Source: Verrucomicrobiales bacterium
GTDB taxonomy: Bacteria > Verrucomicrobiota > Verrucomicrobiia > Verrucomicrobiales > DEV007
Reading direction: 5' to 3'
Assembly (NCBI GenBank): GCA_029213195.1
Contig: JARGNI010000008.1
Coordinates: 1 to 64,000, forward strand
DNA length: 64,000 nucleotides
In this document: positions 20,215-59,196 of the stretch, in pieces
Layout: each line of letters opens with the position of its first letter
How positions within the stretch are numbered: the stretch's first letter is position 1
The notes under the pieces: generated by a model
The model's input: the letters and a program-made list of their open reading frames with translations, nothing else
What the model was told of the DNA's origin: nothing
The model's database searches: none
Position numbers and translations under genes: made by a program

Positions 20215-20317
20215 TTCAACAGAATGGATGATTTGCTGTCTGCCTGCCAAGCGAATAGCGGGCGAGAGAGAGGCTGAAATACGGGAGGCTCTTGATACCG
20301 CAAAGAGCTCCCCAAAG

Positions 20318-20391
20318 CATGCCCTGCTGGATTCGAACCAGCGACCGCCGGATTAGAAATCCGGTGCTCTATCCAGCTGAGCTAAGGGCAC
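20318..20391 (-). tRNA. tRNA-Arg (anticodon TCT)
   Basis: The minus strand folds into a full cloverleaf: acceptor GTGCCCT with AGGGCAT (one G-U), D arm GCTC/GAGC, anticodon stem CCGGA/TCCGG around TTTCTAA, and a T arm with GGTTCGAATCC. The anticodon TCT reads AGA. CCA is not encoded. A promoter lies at 20409-20436. Confidence 0.95.
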
Positions 20392-20408
20392 TTTCTGGAA
20401 GGGCGAAA

Positions 20409-20436
20409 AGTATCGGCGAGGATTGGAAAATCGCAA
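20409..20436 (-). promoter_or_regulatory. tRNA-Arg promoter
   Basis: On the minus strand TTGCGA (20436-20431) and GATACT (20414-20409), each matching four of six consensus bases, are 16 bases apart and about 20 bases before the tRNA. The same promoter is duplicated at 20568-20595 ahead of the broken copy. Confidence 0.55.
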
Positions 20437-20477
20437 GCCCTCAGCGGGTTGGCCGAGTTGATGCGTCCGCTTGAATC

Positions 20478-20550
20478 TGGAGCGCGATCGCCGGATTAGA
20501 AAGTCGATGGCGACCCCCGCCGGTGCTCTATCCAGCTGAGCTAAGGGCAC
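20478..20550 (-). pseudogene. Broken tRNA-Arg copy
   Basis: The 5' half of the tRNA-Arg gene plus its upstream promoter is repeated: bases 20520-20599 match 20361-20440 at 79 of 80 positions. After the 5' anticodon-stem strand about 17 unrelated bases replace the loop edge, then TTTCTAA-TCCGG resumes and the T arm is degraded. The copy cannot fold as a normal tRNA. It lies upstream of the intact gene and carries its own promoter. Confidence 0.88.
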
Positions 20551-20605
20551 TTTCTGGAAGGGCGGAAAGTATCGGCGAGGATTGGAAAATCGCAAGCCCG
20601 TGACG

Positions 20606-23600
20606 CTAGACCTTGCTGAGCTGTTTCTTGAGGCTGAGCCTGAGGAAGAGGAAAGCGACGAGGATGAAAGTTCCCATCGCGAGGAGGTTGAGCCGCAGGG
20701 TCTCGATCCGAAGGGAGAAGAGCGGTTTCTCGCTGTTGGGCGGGAAGCGGAACTGACGCTCTTTTCCAAAAAAGACGTTGGGAGGATTGGTCTCTCGCCG
20801 GTAGTCCTGTCGTTCGACTTCCGCTCGGTTGAAGAGATCCTGGACCTTCTCGTTCAGGTAGAGGTCTCCGGCGGTGTAGGCTTCTTCGCCTTCGGGGACG
20901 GGCTCGAAATACGGCTCGGGATCGAAGGTTCCTCTTTCGAGAGACTTCCGGATATCGGAAACTTTTTTCGCTACGGAAGAGGGGGAGGTGCCCTCGAGAC
21001 CGTGGACGACAGCGAGCGCCTGCTTGAACTGGTAGAGGCGCTCCTCCTCCTCTTCGGTGAGCTCCTGATCGAGAGGGATCTCACTGAACTTCTGGATCTC
21101 GGTCTCGATGAAGTTGGTCAGCAGGCTCGCAGGATTGCGGTCGGCATGTTCGATGATGATGGACTCGTAGCTCCAGCGAAGAGGCATGAAATGGCAGACT
21201 GCGGGCACCTTGAGTCGGCTCGCTTCGTCGTTCTCCGACTCGCTCACAAACCACTGTCGGATGCTCTGGATGATGTCGAGGCTGCGGTTCATCTCGTCGT
21301 ATTTGATGAGCGCCCCGCCGAGAATGATGTTCGGGATGAGAATCAGGGGGATGATGTTGATTGCGGTCTTGGGACTGCGGACCATGCTCGAGATGAAGAG
21401 TCCGGCGGCGATTCCGACAAAGGCGGTCATCGACATCCAGAGGACATTAGAGAAGAACATCGATCGGATCCCGAGGATGGCATTTCCGATCAGGAGATAG
21501 ATGACGCACTGGATCAGGGCAAAGAACCCGAGCGAGATGTATTTCCCGGTGATGTATCCGCCGATTCGGAATCCGTGATGACGTTCTCGCTGGAGTAGAT
21601 TGCGATCTCGGATGATCTCCTCCGCCGAGTTCGTCATGCCCAGGAAAAGCGCGGTGACCAGGGAGAGGAAGAGGTAGGTCGGGATGTGAAAGGCGTTCGC
21701 GAAGTTGTAGGTGCCATCCTCGGTGTAGCGCATCACCACCGCGATGAGGATCGCGAGGGCCGGGGCTTCGAGAAGCGTGGTGGCGAGGTTGGCCCGGTTT
21801 CGCAATTTGCTGAAGAAGGCCCGCTTGAACTGGTTGGAAAAGCGGACCCAGTCGTGTCGCAGGCGGCGAGGGGGGGCTTGCGGAGTCTTCTGTAAGGAAA
21901 CCGTGGGCGAGGTATCGGCCTCGATTTCCCGCAGGTTGACCTCTTCGAGCAGTCGATAGGTCTGGAATCGGTCGGCCCAGAAAGACGAATTGAAGCGCCG
22001 CGCCGGGATCAGGTTTCCCCGGGCGTCCCGCTCGTAGATGACATCGCCACCGAGATCCCGAAGTGGCGTCTCGAGAACATCGAAGATGAAATCGGGAGTG
22101 AAACTGAGGGCATCGTCGGAAATTTCACCGCTGGTGAACGTGGTCGTGTGGATGCCTTCCTGCTCTCGGGCCTTGTTGAAGTAGTCCAGCATCTGGGCCG
22201 GGGTGCCGAAGAAGGCGAGCTTTCCTCCGTTGTCGAGAAGGATGGCCTTGTCGAACATGTGGAAGAGTCGGCTGCTCGGCTGGTGGATGGAAACGAGAGT
22301 GATCTTGTTGTGGGTCAGCCCCCGGATCATCTCGAGGACATGCTCCGAATCCTTGGACGAAAGCCCGGAGGTGGGCTCGTCGAAAAGATAGATGTCGGCG
22401 ATCCCGATCATGTCCATCCCGGCGTTGAGCCGACGGCGTTGGCCCCCACTGAGGCTCTTGGTTTCCTGGTCGCCCGCGAGACGGTGTCGGATCTCGTTGA
22501 GTCCCAGCTCGATCAGCTTGGAGTCGACACGACGACGACGCTCGGCGATGGGAAAATGCGGGGCCCGGATCGCTGCGGCGGTGTCGAGGTTTTCCTCCAC
22601 CGTGAGGAGGGGGTCGAAAGTCTCGTCCTGGGGGATCAGGGCGATGTAGGAACTGAGGTCGTCGTGGGCATCGTAGAGATTGACGCTGTTGAGATCGACG
22701 CGGCCGTGGCGCGGCTTGAGCTGGGCGCCGAGGGTCTTCAACAGGGTGCTTTTCCCGCATCCGCTGGGTCCCATGACGCAGACCATTTCGCCTCGCTGAA
22801 TCGAGAAGGTGATACCATCGAGGGCCGGGGTCTTGCGGTCGTAGGAATGGCTGATGTCCCGGACCTTGAGTGTGTTGATGACATTGCGCTCCTCTTCGAT
22901 GATGCCTTCCGAAAAGTGACAACGGAGATACTGTCCGCCTCCGAGAGCAATGACGCTGCCGTCCTTCAGGGGAGCAATTCCTTTGACGGGGTCTCCCTCG
23001 ACCGCGACAGGGCGCTCGGATTCGAGGACTTCGACGGTGCCGGTTTTGTTGGCATAGTCGCACTTGATCCGGAGAAGGATTTTTCCTGCGGCACCCGGAG
23101 TGAGCAGGATGTCTCCTGCGGAGAGCTCGCTCGGGTCGTTGGATACGAGGTAGGCCGTCCGGTTCGGTGGAAGGCTGAATCGTCCTCCCAGTTCCCGGGC
23201 TTTTCGTCGCAGGTCGTCAAAGGCAATCTCGGAGTGATCCGGGAAATTGATCGTGTCGTGAGAGGAGACTTCGAATGTTGCTCCCTGCTTGAGAGGGCGA
23301 TCTCCGATGACCGCTTCTACGGACTTGAGCACTTCGACTTCGATATGGAGTCCAAAAGAAGCCTTGAGGTAACTCTGCTTCGTCCTGGTTTTCTCGATGA
23401 ACTGATTTCCGTTGCTGTCCTGCGCGAGATAGATCTGGACCGAGGAGACGTTTTTCTTCGAGTTGAAATAGAAGACGAGGTCTTCAAAAGCGAGGACCTC
23501 TTCTCCGATGAGGATCCGCTGACCTTCGTAAACCCGGCAGAACTCTCCGGCGTTGATCTTCCGACCCCGGGCGAGAATGGCACCGGGTCCGAGATTTTTC

Positions 23601-24304
23601 AGAAGGATAAGATTGAGAAACCGGAAGGCGACGACGGAGTGTTCCTGGTCGGACGGGGCGATCGCAATATCGGCGGCGTGGGAGGTCGAGAGCACGATGG
23701 ACTCGAGCTGGTTTCCGTCGCCCTGCTGACCCGGGAGCTTCTCGGGAGGCGAGAGCCGACGTTCCTCGACCTGGGAAAGCTCGCTCGTGTTGAGCTGGTA
23801 GACGATGTTGATCGCTTCGGATGCGACCCCGAGGGTCGTCATGAACTGGTAGAAGGTGATGAGGTTTTCCTTCGGCAGTCCTGCCCGAGAGATCAGAACG
23901 TAGAGCTGCATCCCGAGGAGCACCTTCTCCTCCAGGGAAAGTCGATCGGCGAGATCGTCGGCGATCGCCTCGAGGTCCTGGCGCTCTCGCAGGGATCGAA
24001 TGAAAAGTTGTCGGAGCTCGGTATAGACCGTCTCGGGAAAGTCGTAGCGGAGAAAGCCGAGGATGGAGTCGATTTCCGCCTCGACAACCTGGCCGTCGAG
24101 CTTGGTGAAGCCAGCGAAGACCTGGATCAACATCGGCAGCATGGACTCCTCGGTGCGAGGCGTCTCGCTGCGAAAGAAGGTGCGCTGGATGCGATCCCAG
24201 AATCGACGGCGGCTCCGGGAAAGCCCGGATTCGTTCTTCTTTTTCTTTCCGGAACCTCCGGGCTCGGTCGCCGGATCCCGAAGGGTAGAGGGTGCGTTCG
24301 CCAT
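20606..24304 (-). CDS. Giant ABC transporter: TerB-like domain, NBD and ABC-2 membrane domain in one chain
   Basis: A 1232-residue protein. Residues about 45-200 look like a TerB/DjlA-type helical domain (LPMLIQVFAGFTKLDGQVVE start). Residues about 210-500 are a mixed region of unknown fold. The ATPase has MGPSGCGKSTLLKTL, LSGGQRRRLNAG, YLFDEPTSGLSS and SIHQPS, an ABCG/White-type arrangement. The last 450 residues hold about six membrane segments of the ABC-2 type plus a soluble loop. A half-transporter with NBD before TMD implies a dimeric exporter. The ATG at 24304 is chosen over a TTG at 24412 because upstream residues are unconserved. It is divergent from the C39-like-domain gene at 24462; the shared promoter suggests linked function. 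Substrate unknown. Confidence 0.85.
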   Translation of the reverse strand: MANAPSTLRDPATEPGGSGKKKKNESGLSRSRRRFWDRIQRTFFRSETPRTEESMLPMLIQVFAGFTKLDGQVVEAEIDSILGFLRYDFPETVYTELRQLFIRSLRERQDLEAIADDLADRLSLEEKVLLGMQLYVLISRAGLPKENLITFYQFMTTLGVASEAINIVYQLNTSELSQVEERRLSPPEKLPGQQGDGNQLESIVLSTSHAADIAIAPSDQEHSVVAFRFLNLILLKNLGPGAILARGRKINAGEFCRVYEGQRILIGEEVLAFEDLVFYFNSKKNVSSVQIYLAQDSNGNQFIEKTRTKQSYLKASFGLHIEVEVLKSVEAVIGDRPLKQGATFEVSSHDTINFPDHSEIAFDDLRRKARELGGRFSLPPNRTAYLVSNDPSELSAGDILLTPGAAGKILLRIKCDYANKTGTVEVLESERPVAVEGDPVKGIAPLKDGSVIALGGGQYLRCHFSEGIIEEERNVINTLKVRDISHSYDRKTPALDGITFSIQRGEMVCVMGPSGCGKSTLLKTLGAQLKPRHGRVDLNSVNLYDAHDDLSSYIALIPQDETFDPLLTVEENLDTAAAIRAPHFPIAERRRRVDSKLIELGLNEIRHRLAGDQETKSLSGGQRRRLNAGMDMIGIADIYLFDEPTSGLSSKDSEHVLEMIRGLTHNKITLVSIHQPSSRLFHMFDKAILLDNGGKLAFFGTPAQMLDYFNKAREQEGIHTTTFTSGEISDDALSFTPDFIFDVLETPLRDLGGDVIYERDARGNLIPARRFNSSFWADRFQTYRLLEEVNLREIEADTSPTVSLQKTPQAPPRRLRHDWVRFSNQFKRAFFSKLRNRANLATTLLEAPALAILIAVVMRYTEDGTYNFANAFHIPTYLFLSLVTALFLGMTNSAEEIIRDRNLLQRERHHGFRIGGYITGKYISLGFFALIQCVIYLLIGNAILGIRSMFFSNVLWMSMTAFVGIAAGLFISSMVRSPKTAINIIPLILIPNIILGGALIKYDEMNRSLDIIQSIRQWFVSESENDEASRLKVPAVCHFMPLRWSYESIIIEHADRNPASLLTNFIETEIQKFSEIPLDQELTEEEEERLYQFKQALAVVHGLEGTSPSSVAKKVSDIRKSLERGTFDPEPYFEPVPEGEEAYTAGDLYLNEKVQDLFNRAEVERQDYRRETNPPNVFFGKERQFRFPPNSEKPLFSLRIETLRLNLLAMGTFILVAFLFLRLSLKKQLSKV

Positions 24305-24431
24305 CGTGCTGGTGGGAGAGACTCTATACCATCGATGCTCTTCTTGGAAACCCGTGATCGAAAGGAAGCTGAGTTCCTGATGGCCCTTTTCTCCCAGTTT
24401 CCTAAATAACAATCAAAATTTTACTTTTATT

Positions 24432-24446
24432 TATAATTTTTATAAT
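24432..24446 (+). promoter_or_regulatory. AT-rich promoter with two TATAAT boxes
   Basis: Two perfect TATAAT boxes, at 24432-24437 and 24441-24446, lie in a nearly GC-free tract just before the ATG at 24462. No clear -35 is visible. The 5' leader would be very short. A similar tract precedes the gene at 44554. Confidence 0.45.
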
Positions 24447-24461
24447 TATAATAATAAAGAT

Positions 24462-25466
24462 ATGAGTGCTTTTCGTGATCCTTCTCTTCCAGCTTCGACT
24501 CGGGCTGTCCAGCTTGTGAGTCAGCATCATGGTCTTCCGGAAGGAGAAGATGTCTCCATTCTCCTTGCTGCCAGTGCGGCGACCGGTTCCTTGCGAAAGG
24601 TTTGGAAGCGCGAGGCCAAGGCCCATCATCTCAGGGCTCGTCGGCGGACGATTCGTCTCGAGGAGATTCCCGAAGCACAGTTCCCTGTCATCCTGGAGAT
24701 CGATGGCGCGACCAATTTTGTGGTGCTTCTCGAGCGCGAGAGTGAAAGCGAGTATCGCATTCAGTTTCCTGACTCTCGTGAAGCCATCGTTTCCAAAGAC
24801 CGGATTGCGGAAGTCTATGACGGCACCTGTGTTTTCTTCACTCCGCTGAAAAAGACCGACTCGTCCTCGGATGATTCCGGATCTGGCGGTTCGGGTGGCG
24901 GGCTCAAGCGATTGTTGGGTCCCAAATCCAGCTCGGCAAAACTCTCGCTCTTTTTCAATGCGGGTTTGATTGCAGCTGCCGGGATCATGATGGTGGGTCA
25001 GCAGGAATTTCTTTCCCGCTTCGAGTCTTCCTCGCTTTTGATGGTGGCGCTTTCGGTCGTCGCAGGCGTGATGTTCTCGCTCGGTGCGATCCTGCTTCGC
25101 CGGGAATTCTTTCGTGCAAATGGAGCGGCTGACGGAGTTGATCTGCTCTGTGCGGCAGCGATCCTGCCCCTGACGGTTCTTCTCGCCGGACCGGTTGCGA
25201 TTCCCTTGCTCGTCGTGGGACTCGTGGTGGCGGCCTACTTGTTTCTTTCCCGTCGCCTTGGTTCCGTGGACTCGCGTTTGTCCTCTCTGCGTCGTCCTCT
25301 CCTTTTCTCCGCTCTGCTCTTTGCCATGTTGGGCGTGATCTTCGGGGGAGCGACCCAGGATCCTGTCGGAATCGTCGGAGTCTTCGGGCTCGGGATCTAC
25401 GCGCTCTATCTCCTGATGCGGGCGGATCGGGCCTGTCAGGAAAGTCGACTGATCGCGATTTCCTGA
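24462..25466 (+). CDS. C39-like-domain membrane protein without ATPase
   Basis: A 334-residue protein. Residues 10-130 resemble the catalytically dead C39-like domain at the start of LapB-type type I secretion transporters: ILLAASAATGSLRKVWKREAK, EIPEAQFPVILEIDGATNFVVLLE and YDGTCVFFTP follow the expected order, and no active-site Cys is present. A Ser/Gly linker (130-150) leads to about seven hydrophobic segments (160-325). No nucleotide-binding domain follows, unlike normal secretion ABC proteins. The divergent ABC gene at 20606 has an ATPase but no C39-like domain, so the two could form a split exporter; this is inference. Confidence 0.7.
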   Translation: MSAFRDPSLPASTRAVQLVSQHHGLPEGEDVSILLAASAATGSLRKVWKREAKAHHLRARRRTIRLEEIPEAQFPVILEIDGATNFVVLLERESESEYRIQFPDSREAIVSKDRIAEVYDGTCVFFTPLKKTDSSSDDSGSGGSGGGLKRLLGPKSSSAKLSLFFNAGLIAAAGIMMVGQQEFLSRFESSSLLMVALSVVAGVMFSLGAILLRREFFRANGAADGVDLLCAAAILPLTVLLAGPVAIPLLVVGLVVAAYLFLSRRLGSVDSRLSSLRRPLLFSALLFAMLGVIFGGATQDPVGIVGVFGLGIYALYLLMRADRACQESRLIAIS

Positions 25467-25580: not shown

Positions 25581-26825
25581 ATGGATGCGGTGACACTTCG
25601 CGAACTCAAACAGCAGGCGGGCGCGGTAAGTGCTCACTGCCGTTTTCATGCCCAGCTCGAGAAGTGTCGCCAGAAGACGACCAAGACGGGGAATCCGTTC
25701 TACGAGGTGATCTTCGCCGATGCCGAGGAGAACCTGGTGCTTCGAGTCTGGAACAATACACCGATGTTCGATACCTGTGCGCAGCTCAGTGCACGGACTT
25801 TTTATGAAGTAAGCGGCGAATTCGGATTGGGAAATGATGGTCGCTCGATCGATGGAAAGAACTGGACCGTTCGAGCCCTCGACGAGACGGAATCCGCGGA
25901 AGTACTGGCGGGATCCGGTGCGCTTCGGGAGAAGCAGGAGGTCGACTATCAATTTCTTGTCGACAGTATCGATCAACTTGGCGATCCGAGACTGAATGCC
26001 CTCGGGAAACTCTTTCTCGAACAATTTGGAGATCGACTCCGTCGAACCGGTGCGGCGCGGGATTATCATCATGCTCGACGAGGCGGGCTGGTCGAGCATG
26101 TTGCGCAGATGATGCGGACGGCCATCCAGGTTTGCGAGGCTTACCCGATGCTGAATCGAGATTTGCTCGTGACGGGGGTTCTTTTCCACGACGTCGGGAA
26201 ACTTTGGGAAAACGCCTACCAGGAGAGTGGTTTCACGATGCCCTACACGGAGATCAGTGAGCTGATCGGTCACATTCCGCTGGGCATGGAAATCGTGAAC
26301 AAGCTGTGGCGGACCCTGCAGGAGGACGAGGAGAGATCTGCGGCATGGGCTCACCTCGAGCCTGCTTCGGATCGCGTGAGGCTGCATCTCCTTCACCTCA
26401 TTGTCTCGCATCACGGAGAATTGGAGTTCGGTTCTCCGGTCGTGCCCAAGACACCGGAGGCCCAGGCGTTGCACTACATCGACAATCTCGACGCCAAGAT
26501 GGAAATGTTCGACCGAGGCTACCAGGTCGCGGGCGAGCTGGCCCGCAATGTGTATGAGAGGGTGCGTCCGCTCCCGGGGCGTCTTGTGGCGCCGCTTCCG
26601 AAATGGGAGGGCTCGTGGGGCGCAGGTGCGAGTTCCGAAGCTGCCGAAGAACCGGTGCCCTTGGCGGAAGCGGATCCCGTCCCCGTCCCCGAGCCAGAAG
26701 ATCGGGCGGCAAATTCACCGGAGGTTTCGGAAGCAACGGATCCGCCGGATGCTCCGCCCACTTCTCCCGAAGAGTCTCGGGCGGAGGAGCCACGCGCCGA
26801 CGAACCGCGTCCCGACCCTTTCTAG
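25581..26825 (+). CDS. YhaM-like 3'-5' exoribonuclease (OB fold plus HD domain)
   Basis: A 414-residue protein. Residues 1-105 are an OB-fold nucleic-acid-binding domain (CRFHAQLEKC...FYEVIFADAEENLVLRVW). The HD domain spans about 160-310: GGLVEHVAQM, VLFHDVGKLWE (the HD pair) and LIVSHHGELEFGSP are the metal-binding steps of YhaM/CBF1-type HD nucleases. Residues 340-414 form a Pro/Glu/Ala-rich tail. It would trim RNA or DNA from the 3' end. It is convergent with the ACT gene, whose stop is one base beyond. Confidence 0.88.
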   Translation: MDAVTLRELKQQAGAVSAHCRFHAQLEKCRQKTTKTGNPFYEVIFADAEENLVLRVWNNTPMFDTCAQLSARTFYEVSGEFGLGNDGRSIDGKNWTVRALDETESAEVLAGSGALREKQEVDYQFLVDSIDQLGDPRLNALGKLFLEQFGDRLRRTGAARDYHHARRGGLVEHVAQMMRTAIQVCEAYPMLNRDLLVTGVLFHDVGKLWENAYQESGFTMPYTEISELIGHIPLGMEIVNKLWRTLQEDEERSAAWAHLEPASDRVRLHLLHLIVSHHGELEFGSPVVPKTPEAQALHYIDNLDAKMEMFDRGYQVAGELARNVYERVRPLPGRLVAPLPKWEGSWGAGASSEAAEEPVPLAEADPVPVPEPEDRAANSPEVSEATDPPDAPPTSPEESRAEEPRADEPRPDPF

Positions 26826-55831: not shown

Positions 55832-55995
55832 GTCAGATCAGAAGTGGTCACGTTATACTTGAAAGAATTCAGACGGATTTCAAGTGCTTTCTCAAAATCG
55901 AGACTACGTCATCCTGATACTCGAGAAAAACTGGTTTCCTCCGTTGCGCTGGGCCGCGCGAGATGCAAGAGGTGATCAATTTAATAGGGAATTTC

Positions 55996-59196
<3,201 letters not shown>

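Follow-up and report, generated by a model that had tools for sequence, protein, structure and literature searches.

The question raised by this locus is what an ABC transporter and a C39-like membrane protein without an ATPase, encoded by two divergent genes, may have to do with one another. In the window, i.e. the whole stretch of 64,000 nucleotides of Verrucomicrobiales contig JARGNI010000008.1 that was analysed, gene A occupies positions 20606..24304 of the minus strand and gene B positions 24462..25466 of the plus strand. The original prediction saw in them either a split exporter or a sensor-exporter pair. We thus asked what each protein is made of, how widely it occurs and how closely the two genes are kept together.

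Gene A joins a putative TerB-like domain and degenerate FHA domains to an ABCG-like transporter

Gene A begins with the ATG at 24304 and stops at 20606, encoding exactly 1232 amino acids. An alternative TTG start at 24412 would make the protein longer; homologs align from about the ATG. The domains and coordinates originally assigned to this protein were borne out, with its 1232 residues, an ABC_tran domain, an ABC2_membrane domain and a weak TerB match. The part described as an unknown region was found to hold two degenerate FHA folds, on the basis of Pfam matches in homologs, a profile match and a predicted model.

The putative TerB-like helical domain (23788..24115, minus strand, about residues 56-173) has seven helices in the model. 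Its Pfam TerB match is weak, with E of 0.0035-0.0097 over residues 64-129, under the Pfam cut-off; 21 of 35 homologs matched at E up to 0.1, the best at 6e-4. The first FHA fold (23462..23722, minus strand, about residues 195-281) was recognised by structural matching of the predicted N-terminal model, which covers residues 44-478 with a mean pLDDT of 81.6 and whose positions 152-238, counted within the model, matched the Rad53 FHA domain with VIA Z 9.4. The second, degenerate one (22907..23200, minus strand, about residues 369-466) was recognised by structure (VIA Z 10.0 with 3gqs and 10.3 with 1wv3) and by Pfam FHA, found in seven of 35 homologs with a best E of 8e-6. The gene A profile also gave a weak match to 3gqs, the structure of the Chlamydia CT664 FHA domain, and the FHA-2 structure of Rv1747 (6cah) was among the matches of the model (Z 8.3, rmsd 5.0). 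The phosphothreonine-binding Ser-Arg-x-His motif was present in none of 71 gene A homologs, and we therefore regard the FHA domains as degenerate.

The nucleotide-binding domain (NBD) spans residues 477-718 (22150..22874, minus strand) and matches Pfam ABC_tran at 1.7e-28 (residues 495-646). All four catalytic motifs (Walker A at 512, LSGGQ at 618, Walker B at 640, H-loop at 674), including the Walker B Glu, are intact and conserved. The best NCBIfam match of the protein was TIGR00955, the ABCG "pigment precursor permease" (6.5e-63, under that model's own cut-off). The ABC-2 membrane domain (20621..21829, minus strand), delimited by Pfam and hydrophobicity, matches ABC2_membrane at 3e-21 (residues 826-1010). 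It has six hydrophobic peaks, at 849, 881, 937, 963, 991 and 1216, the last preceded by about 200 extracytoplasmic residues, and this pattern is ABCG-like. Gene A is a complete ABCG-type (ABC-2) half-transporter, probably working as a homodimeric exporter, and by analogy with ABCG proteins and Rv1747 we infer that it may carry a lipid-like or cell-envelope compound. Its cytoplasmic TerB-like and degenerate FHA-FHA module would be a regulatory or scaffolding arm.

Distribution of gene A in Verrucomicrobiota

All 75 genomes examined from the source family were counted as having a relative of gene A, a few fragmentary ones matching other ABC ATPases only. Its N-terminal part was found in 42 of 288 genomes of a phylum-wide sample, one of the 42 being weak, and a scan of genome contigs yielded 328 relatives; the 80 that were retrieved all belong to Verrucomicrobiota, Chthoniobacterales included. 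Outside the source genus the usual divergent neighbour of gene A is FtsH, identified in one representative by Peptidase_M41 (1.5e-69) and AAA matches. In G327-G336 (genus g156) and G321-G324 (genus g153), the TerB-FHA module is missing or shortened and gene A is a plain ABCG-type transporter of only 700-830 residues, with ftsH still adjoining in those examined, as would be expected if the module were regulatory and not essential. Four genomes that lost gene B keep gene A at about 76-80% identity, and gene A is kept as well throughout the other genera, in which no gene B was seen. Gene A belongs to the core genes of Verrucomicrobiales and their relatives. As it has an NBD and a membrane domain of its own and is maintained in such genomes, it probably functions without gene B. 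A pump of this kind, with two degenerate FHA domains in a row, is widespread in Verrucomicrobiota and apparently has yet to be characterised.

Gene B is a reduced LssB/LapB-type protein without an NBD

Gene B encodes 334 amino acids, beginning with a C39-like domain (CLD; 24462..24851, plus strand, residues 1-130). The originally proposed C39-like N-terminus was confirmed on two grounds: NCBIfam TIGR03375 (LssB) matched at E 3.2e-11 over residues 41-139, and the model of the CLD matched the solved C39-like domain 3b79 with Z 16.7 (2.6 A, 120 residues). A match to the CLD structure of HlyB (3zua) followed at Z 14.2, while Pfam Peptidase_C39 scored 21.3 bits, just below its cut-off of 22.0. Identity to solved CLDs is only 11-18%. 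The catalytic Cys of C39 is absent; the position of the catalytic His holds Asn in the window's gene B, Asn, Gln or Arg in most members of the family and His in two. Judged from these residues, gene B is not an active C39 peptidase and its CLD is protease-dead.

Six short transmembrane (TM) helices, seen in the model and in a profile alignment, follow at residues 154-333 (24921..25463, plus strand), the intracellular loops being missing. The whole predicted model (mean pLDDT 83.5) matched HlyB (7SGR) over residues 7-323 with Z 14.4; the large rmsd of 17.6 A probably reflects a different placement of the domains in the model. When the gene B family was compared with real LssB proteins of the same genus by HHalign, the probability was 98 and E 1.7e-13, which upholds the proposed LapB/LssB relationship, and residues 15-251 of gene B were aligned with 24-314 of LssB, TM2 and TM3 being set apart by a gap of some 48 residues. 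In ABC exporters, the stretch between TM2 and TM3 carries the first intracellular coupling region. The alignment to the LssB profile and the HlyB-like fold both identify the membrane part of gene B as a shortened six-helix type IV exporter domain. No NBD was detected in gene B by Pfam ABC_tran or NCBIfam scans, so that both the lack of an NBD and the presence of membrane segments agree with what had been predicted. Gene B is thus a reduced type I secretion ABC transporter of the LssB/LapB type, and it cannot pump because it has lost the NBD and the loops that couple to it.

Other assignments of gene B were rejected. A VKOR-type fusion was dismissed as there was neither a VKOR match nor conserved Cys pairs, and a DUF3318 match (E 2.6e-4) was taken as chance, being absent in four other members scanned. 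A PDB sequence search with the gene B profile returned chance matches only.

Gene B occurs in genomes where LssB was not detected, e.g. G292, G298, G300, G302 and G318, and therefore it does not serve a local type I system as a subunit. HlyD/TolC partner genes were not found among the nine proteins scanned at 16.8-29.8 kb of the window. The source genome itself carries a normal LssB/LapB-type transporter (G000:C5:26487-28010, L250), its open frame of 524 residues being cut inside the NBD, apparently by the contig end.

Reduced forms of gene B and the selection acting on them

Proteins of this type form a series of decreasing size: LssB with 746 residues, a relative with a broken NBD (614), gene B (about 334), the CLD alone (152-170) and, finally, absence. 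The 614-residue CLD-TMD-NBD protein is encoded in G305 (L169:7127-8971), away from gene A. Its alignment with LssB extends over almost the full protein (E 6e-35) and that with gene B has E 1.4e-16, and it keeps a recognisable NBD (ABC_tran 3.6e-17), in which LSGGQ reads LKLLQ, the Walker B Glu is replaced by Asp and the switch (H-loop) His is missing. This form could be a separate, parallel reduction and not an intermediate toward gene B. Most members of the genus that bear gene B have the form of about 330 residues; in G309, G297 and G320 only the CLD is left and the membrane part is gone, with just 23 bp between the CLD stop and the next gene in G309. Four members of the clade (G289, G295, G296 and G291) have no gene B, one of them with a possible 89-residue remnant.

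In the closest pairs, omega was 0.10-0.31 for gene B and 0.025-0.09 for gene A; values for more distant pairs reached 0.46, near saturation. Mean pairwise identity of gene B was 0.58 in the CLD (residues 57-130) and 0.30-0.35 in the membrane part. The conservation of homologs and this purifying selection mean that genes A and B are more than chance open reading frames. Low omega and conservation of the CLD therefore suggest that gene B is most likely functional and that the CLD, where selection is strongest, is the part being retained. Within the genus, consecutive stages in the loss of an ABC exporter's motor are preserved, the substrate-recognition domain still being under selection, and with this series it can be tested if a C39-like domain is able to function in the absence of transport.

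Gene order and neighbourhood of the A-B pair

The starts of genes A and B lie 157 bp apart, separated by a divergent intergenic region (24305..24461) that is AT-rich beside gene B and in which a consensus promoter scan revealed no sigma-70-like site. In 23 of the 24 testable genomes gene B adjoins gene A divergently; the predicted divergent pairing is therefore real within the genus. G311, whose contig ends at the locus, falls outside the testable set, and in G320 a CLD-only copy of gene B is found at a place unlinked to gene A. As most genomes are draft MAGs, incomplete assembly may explain some of the cases in which gene B is missing or unlinked. In the tree of gene A, the genomes bearing gene B group in a single clade of 28 rows, in which losses are scattered. 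When 289 genomes of the order were searched with a profile, the gene B family turned up in one genus only; in this search and in single-sequence searches no B-type protein was seen outside the genus, the other matches being LssB cross-hits or weak. The original idea that the two genes belong together and that gene B starts with a C39-like domain thus stands as to the domain, but as to the pairing it does not extend to most relatives of gene A, which are without gene B.

Downstream of gene B lies a conserved neighbour, a gene for a YhaM-like HD 3'-5' exoribonuclease (25581..26825, plus strand). Evolutionary distances of A and B remained correlated after removing HD (0.67), while those of B and HD were uncorrelated once A was removed (-0.05). 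With CarB as the control, the correlation was 0.81 for A and HD and 0.80 for A and B. These values give no ground for a specific coevolution of A and B, as A-B and A-HD come out alike and the control is itself split by identity. In genus g1, CarB, the large subunit of carbamoyl phosphate synthase (window 55963-59193; loci L318-L345), forms two groups of about 85-91% and 70-79% identity, and G320 has two copies; these groups are possible paralogs or the result of transfer.

On the other side of the pair, an 80-nt direct repeat, 99% identical, occurs at window positions 20520-20599 and 20361-20440. It consists of the first part of the tRNA-Arg(tct) gene (20317-20391, minus strand) with its upstream flank, copied directly past the gene A stop, and this arrangement resembles a tRNA-associated insertion or duplication site.

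What might gene B do beside gene A?

A split exporter, in which the ATPase of gene A would drive the membrane domain of gene B, is suggested by the mere position of an NBD-less membrane domain beside an ABC protein. Of the two readings originally predicted, a sensor-exporter pair is possible, but the split exporter is not supported and we consider it highly improbable: the NBD of gene A is intact and already has its own ABC-2 domain, most relatives keep gene A without gene B, and the membrane domain of gene B not only belongs to another fold family (type IV exporter as opposed to ABC-2, type V) but also lacks the intracellular loops that contact an NBD. It is also improbable, though less so, that gene B partners the downstream HD gene instead of gene A. 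The two are neighbours on the same strand with a short gap in most of the genus, but HD stays beside gene A where gene B was lost (G289, G295, G296), the residual distance correlation is nil and such a partnership is without known functional logic. About equally improbable is that gene B is degenerating and no longer has any function. Its repeated loss and truncation, and its fast evolution (identity mostly 32-40%, while that of gene A is 72-83%), would agree with decay; on the other hand, omega is well under 1 in the closest pairs, about 20 genomes have intact open reading frames, and there are invariant positions in the CLD.

The remaining alternative, a sensor or adaptor, deserves more attention, although we consider it doubtful. 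Here the CLD of gene B would dock on the TerB/FHA arm of gene A and recruit a substrate or regulate the pump, as a genus-specific add-on to an old transporter. Adjacency has been kept in nearly all testable genomes even though identity between B proteins is just about 35%, the cytoplasmic modules of both proteins would lie at the inner membrane face, and the A-B distances stay correlated without HD. However, four clade members do without gene B, the CLD-only copy of G320 is unlinked to gene A, and A correlates equally well with HD, so that the distances do not point to a coevolution specific to the pair. That a stripped type I secretion transporter has become a client-binding adaptor feeding or gating an unrelated ABCG-type exporter is, in our opinion, somewhat less likely still. 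If it were true, the CLD of one ABC fold class would feed or gate a pump of another class.

We thus favour, with a probability of roughly 60%, a complete and self-sufficient ABCG-type exporter (gene A) accompanied by a genus-specific motor-less LssB/LapB descendant (gene B) that is likely a membrane-tethered, client-binding CLD. This reading is grounded in data as regards domain make-up, ancestry, the reduction ladder, gene order and selection. Gene B keeps a protease-dead CLD on a compact six-helix membrane anchor. The CLD of HlyB tethers, binds and shields unfolded substrate (PMC8277102), and by this analogy we infer that the CLD of gene B most likely serves, at the cytoplasmic face, to bind a peptide or an unfolded client. 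Gene B possibly acts near gene A, with which it has the divergent intergenic region in common. A physical A-B link is possible, and the conserved divergent placement makes it plausible; gene B could dimerise with gene A or regulate it.

Comparison with known systems

Both proteins are built from parts of known kinds. The variants for which we found no description are an LssB derivative without a motor and the joining of TerB, FHA-FHA and ABCG in one chain: searches of the open-access literature returned no report of an NBD-less LssB and none of a TerB-FHA-ABCG protein. The closest described architecture to gene A is that of Rv1747 of Mycobacterium tuberculosis, which is FHA-FHA-NBD-TMD (PMC5549992). 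Both have tandem FHA folds before an ABCG-like NBD and an ABC-2 domain, whereas gene A adds a putative TerB-like domain and its FHA folds are devoid of phospho-binding residues; of the neighbouring genes scanned, none was recognised as coding for a Ser/Thr kinase.

As for gene B, it shares with LssB/LapB (TIGR03375) the order of a protease-dead C39-like domain followed by six TM helices, with sequence kinship detectable over the CLD and TM1-TM4, but it is without the NBD and the intracellular coupling loops. With HlyB (PDB 3ZUA, 7SGR) it has in common the CLD fold and the position of the CLD before the TM helices; HlyB, however, is a full ABC transporter, while gene B is motor-less. A C39 fold taken apart from its motor is also known from stand-alone C39 proteases such as LahT150, the active protease domain of a transporter (PMC6363468). 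Gene B and its CLD-only relatives differ from these proteases in being devoid of the catalytic Cys.
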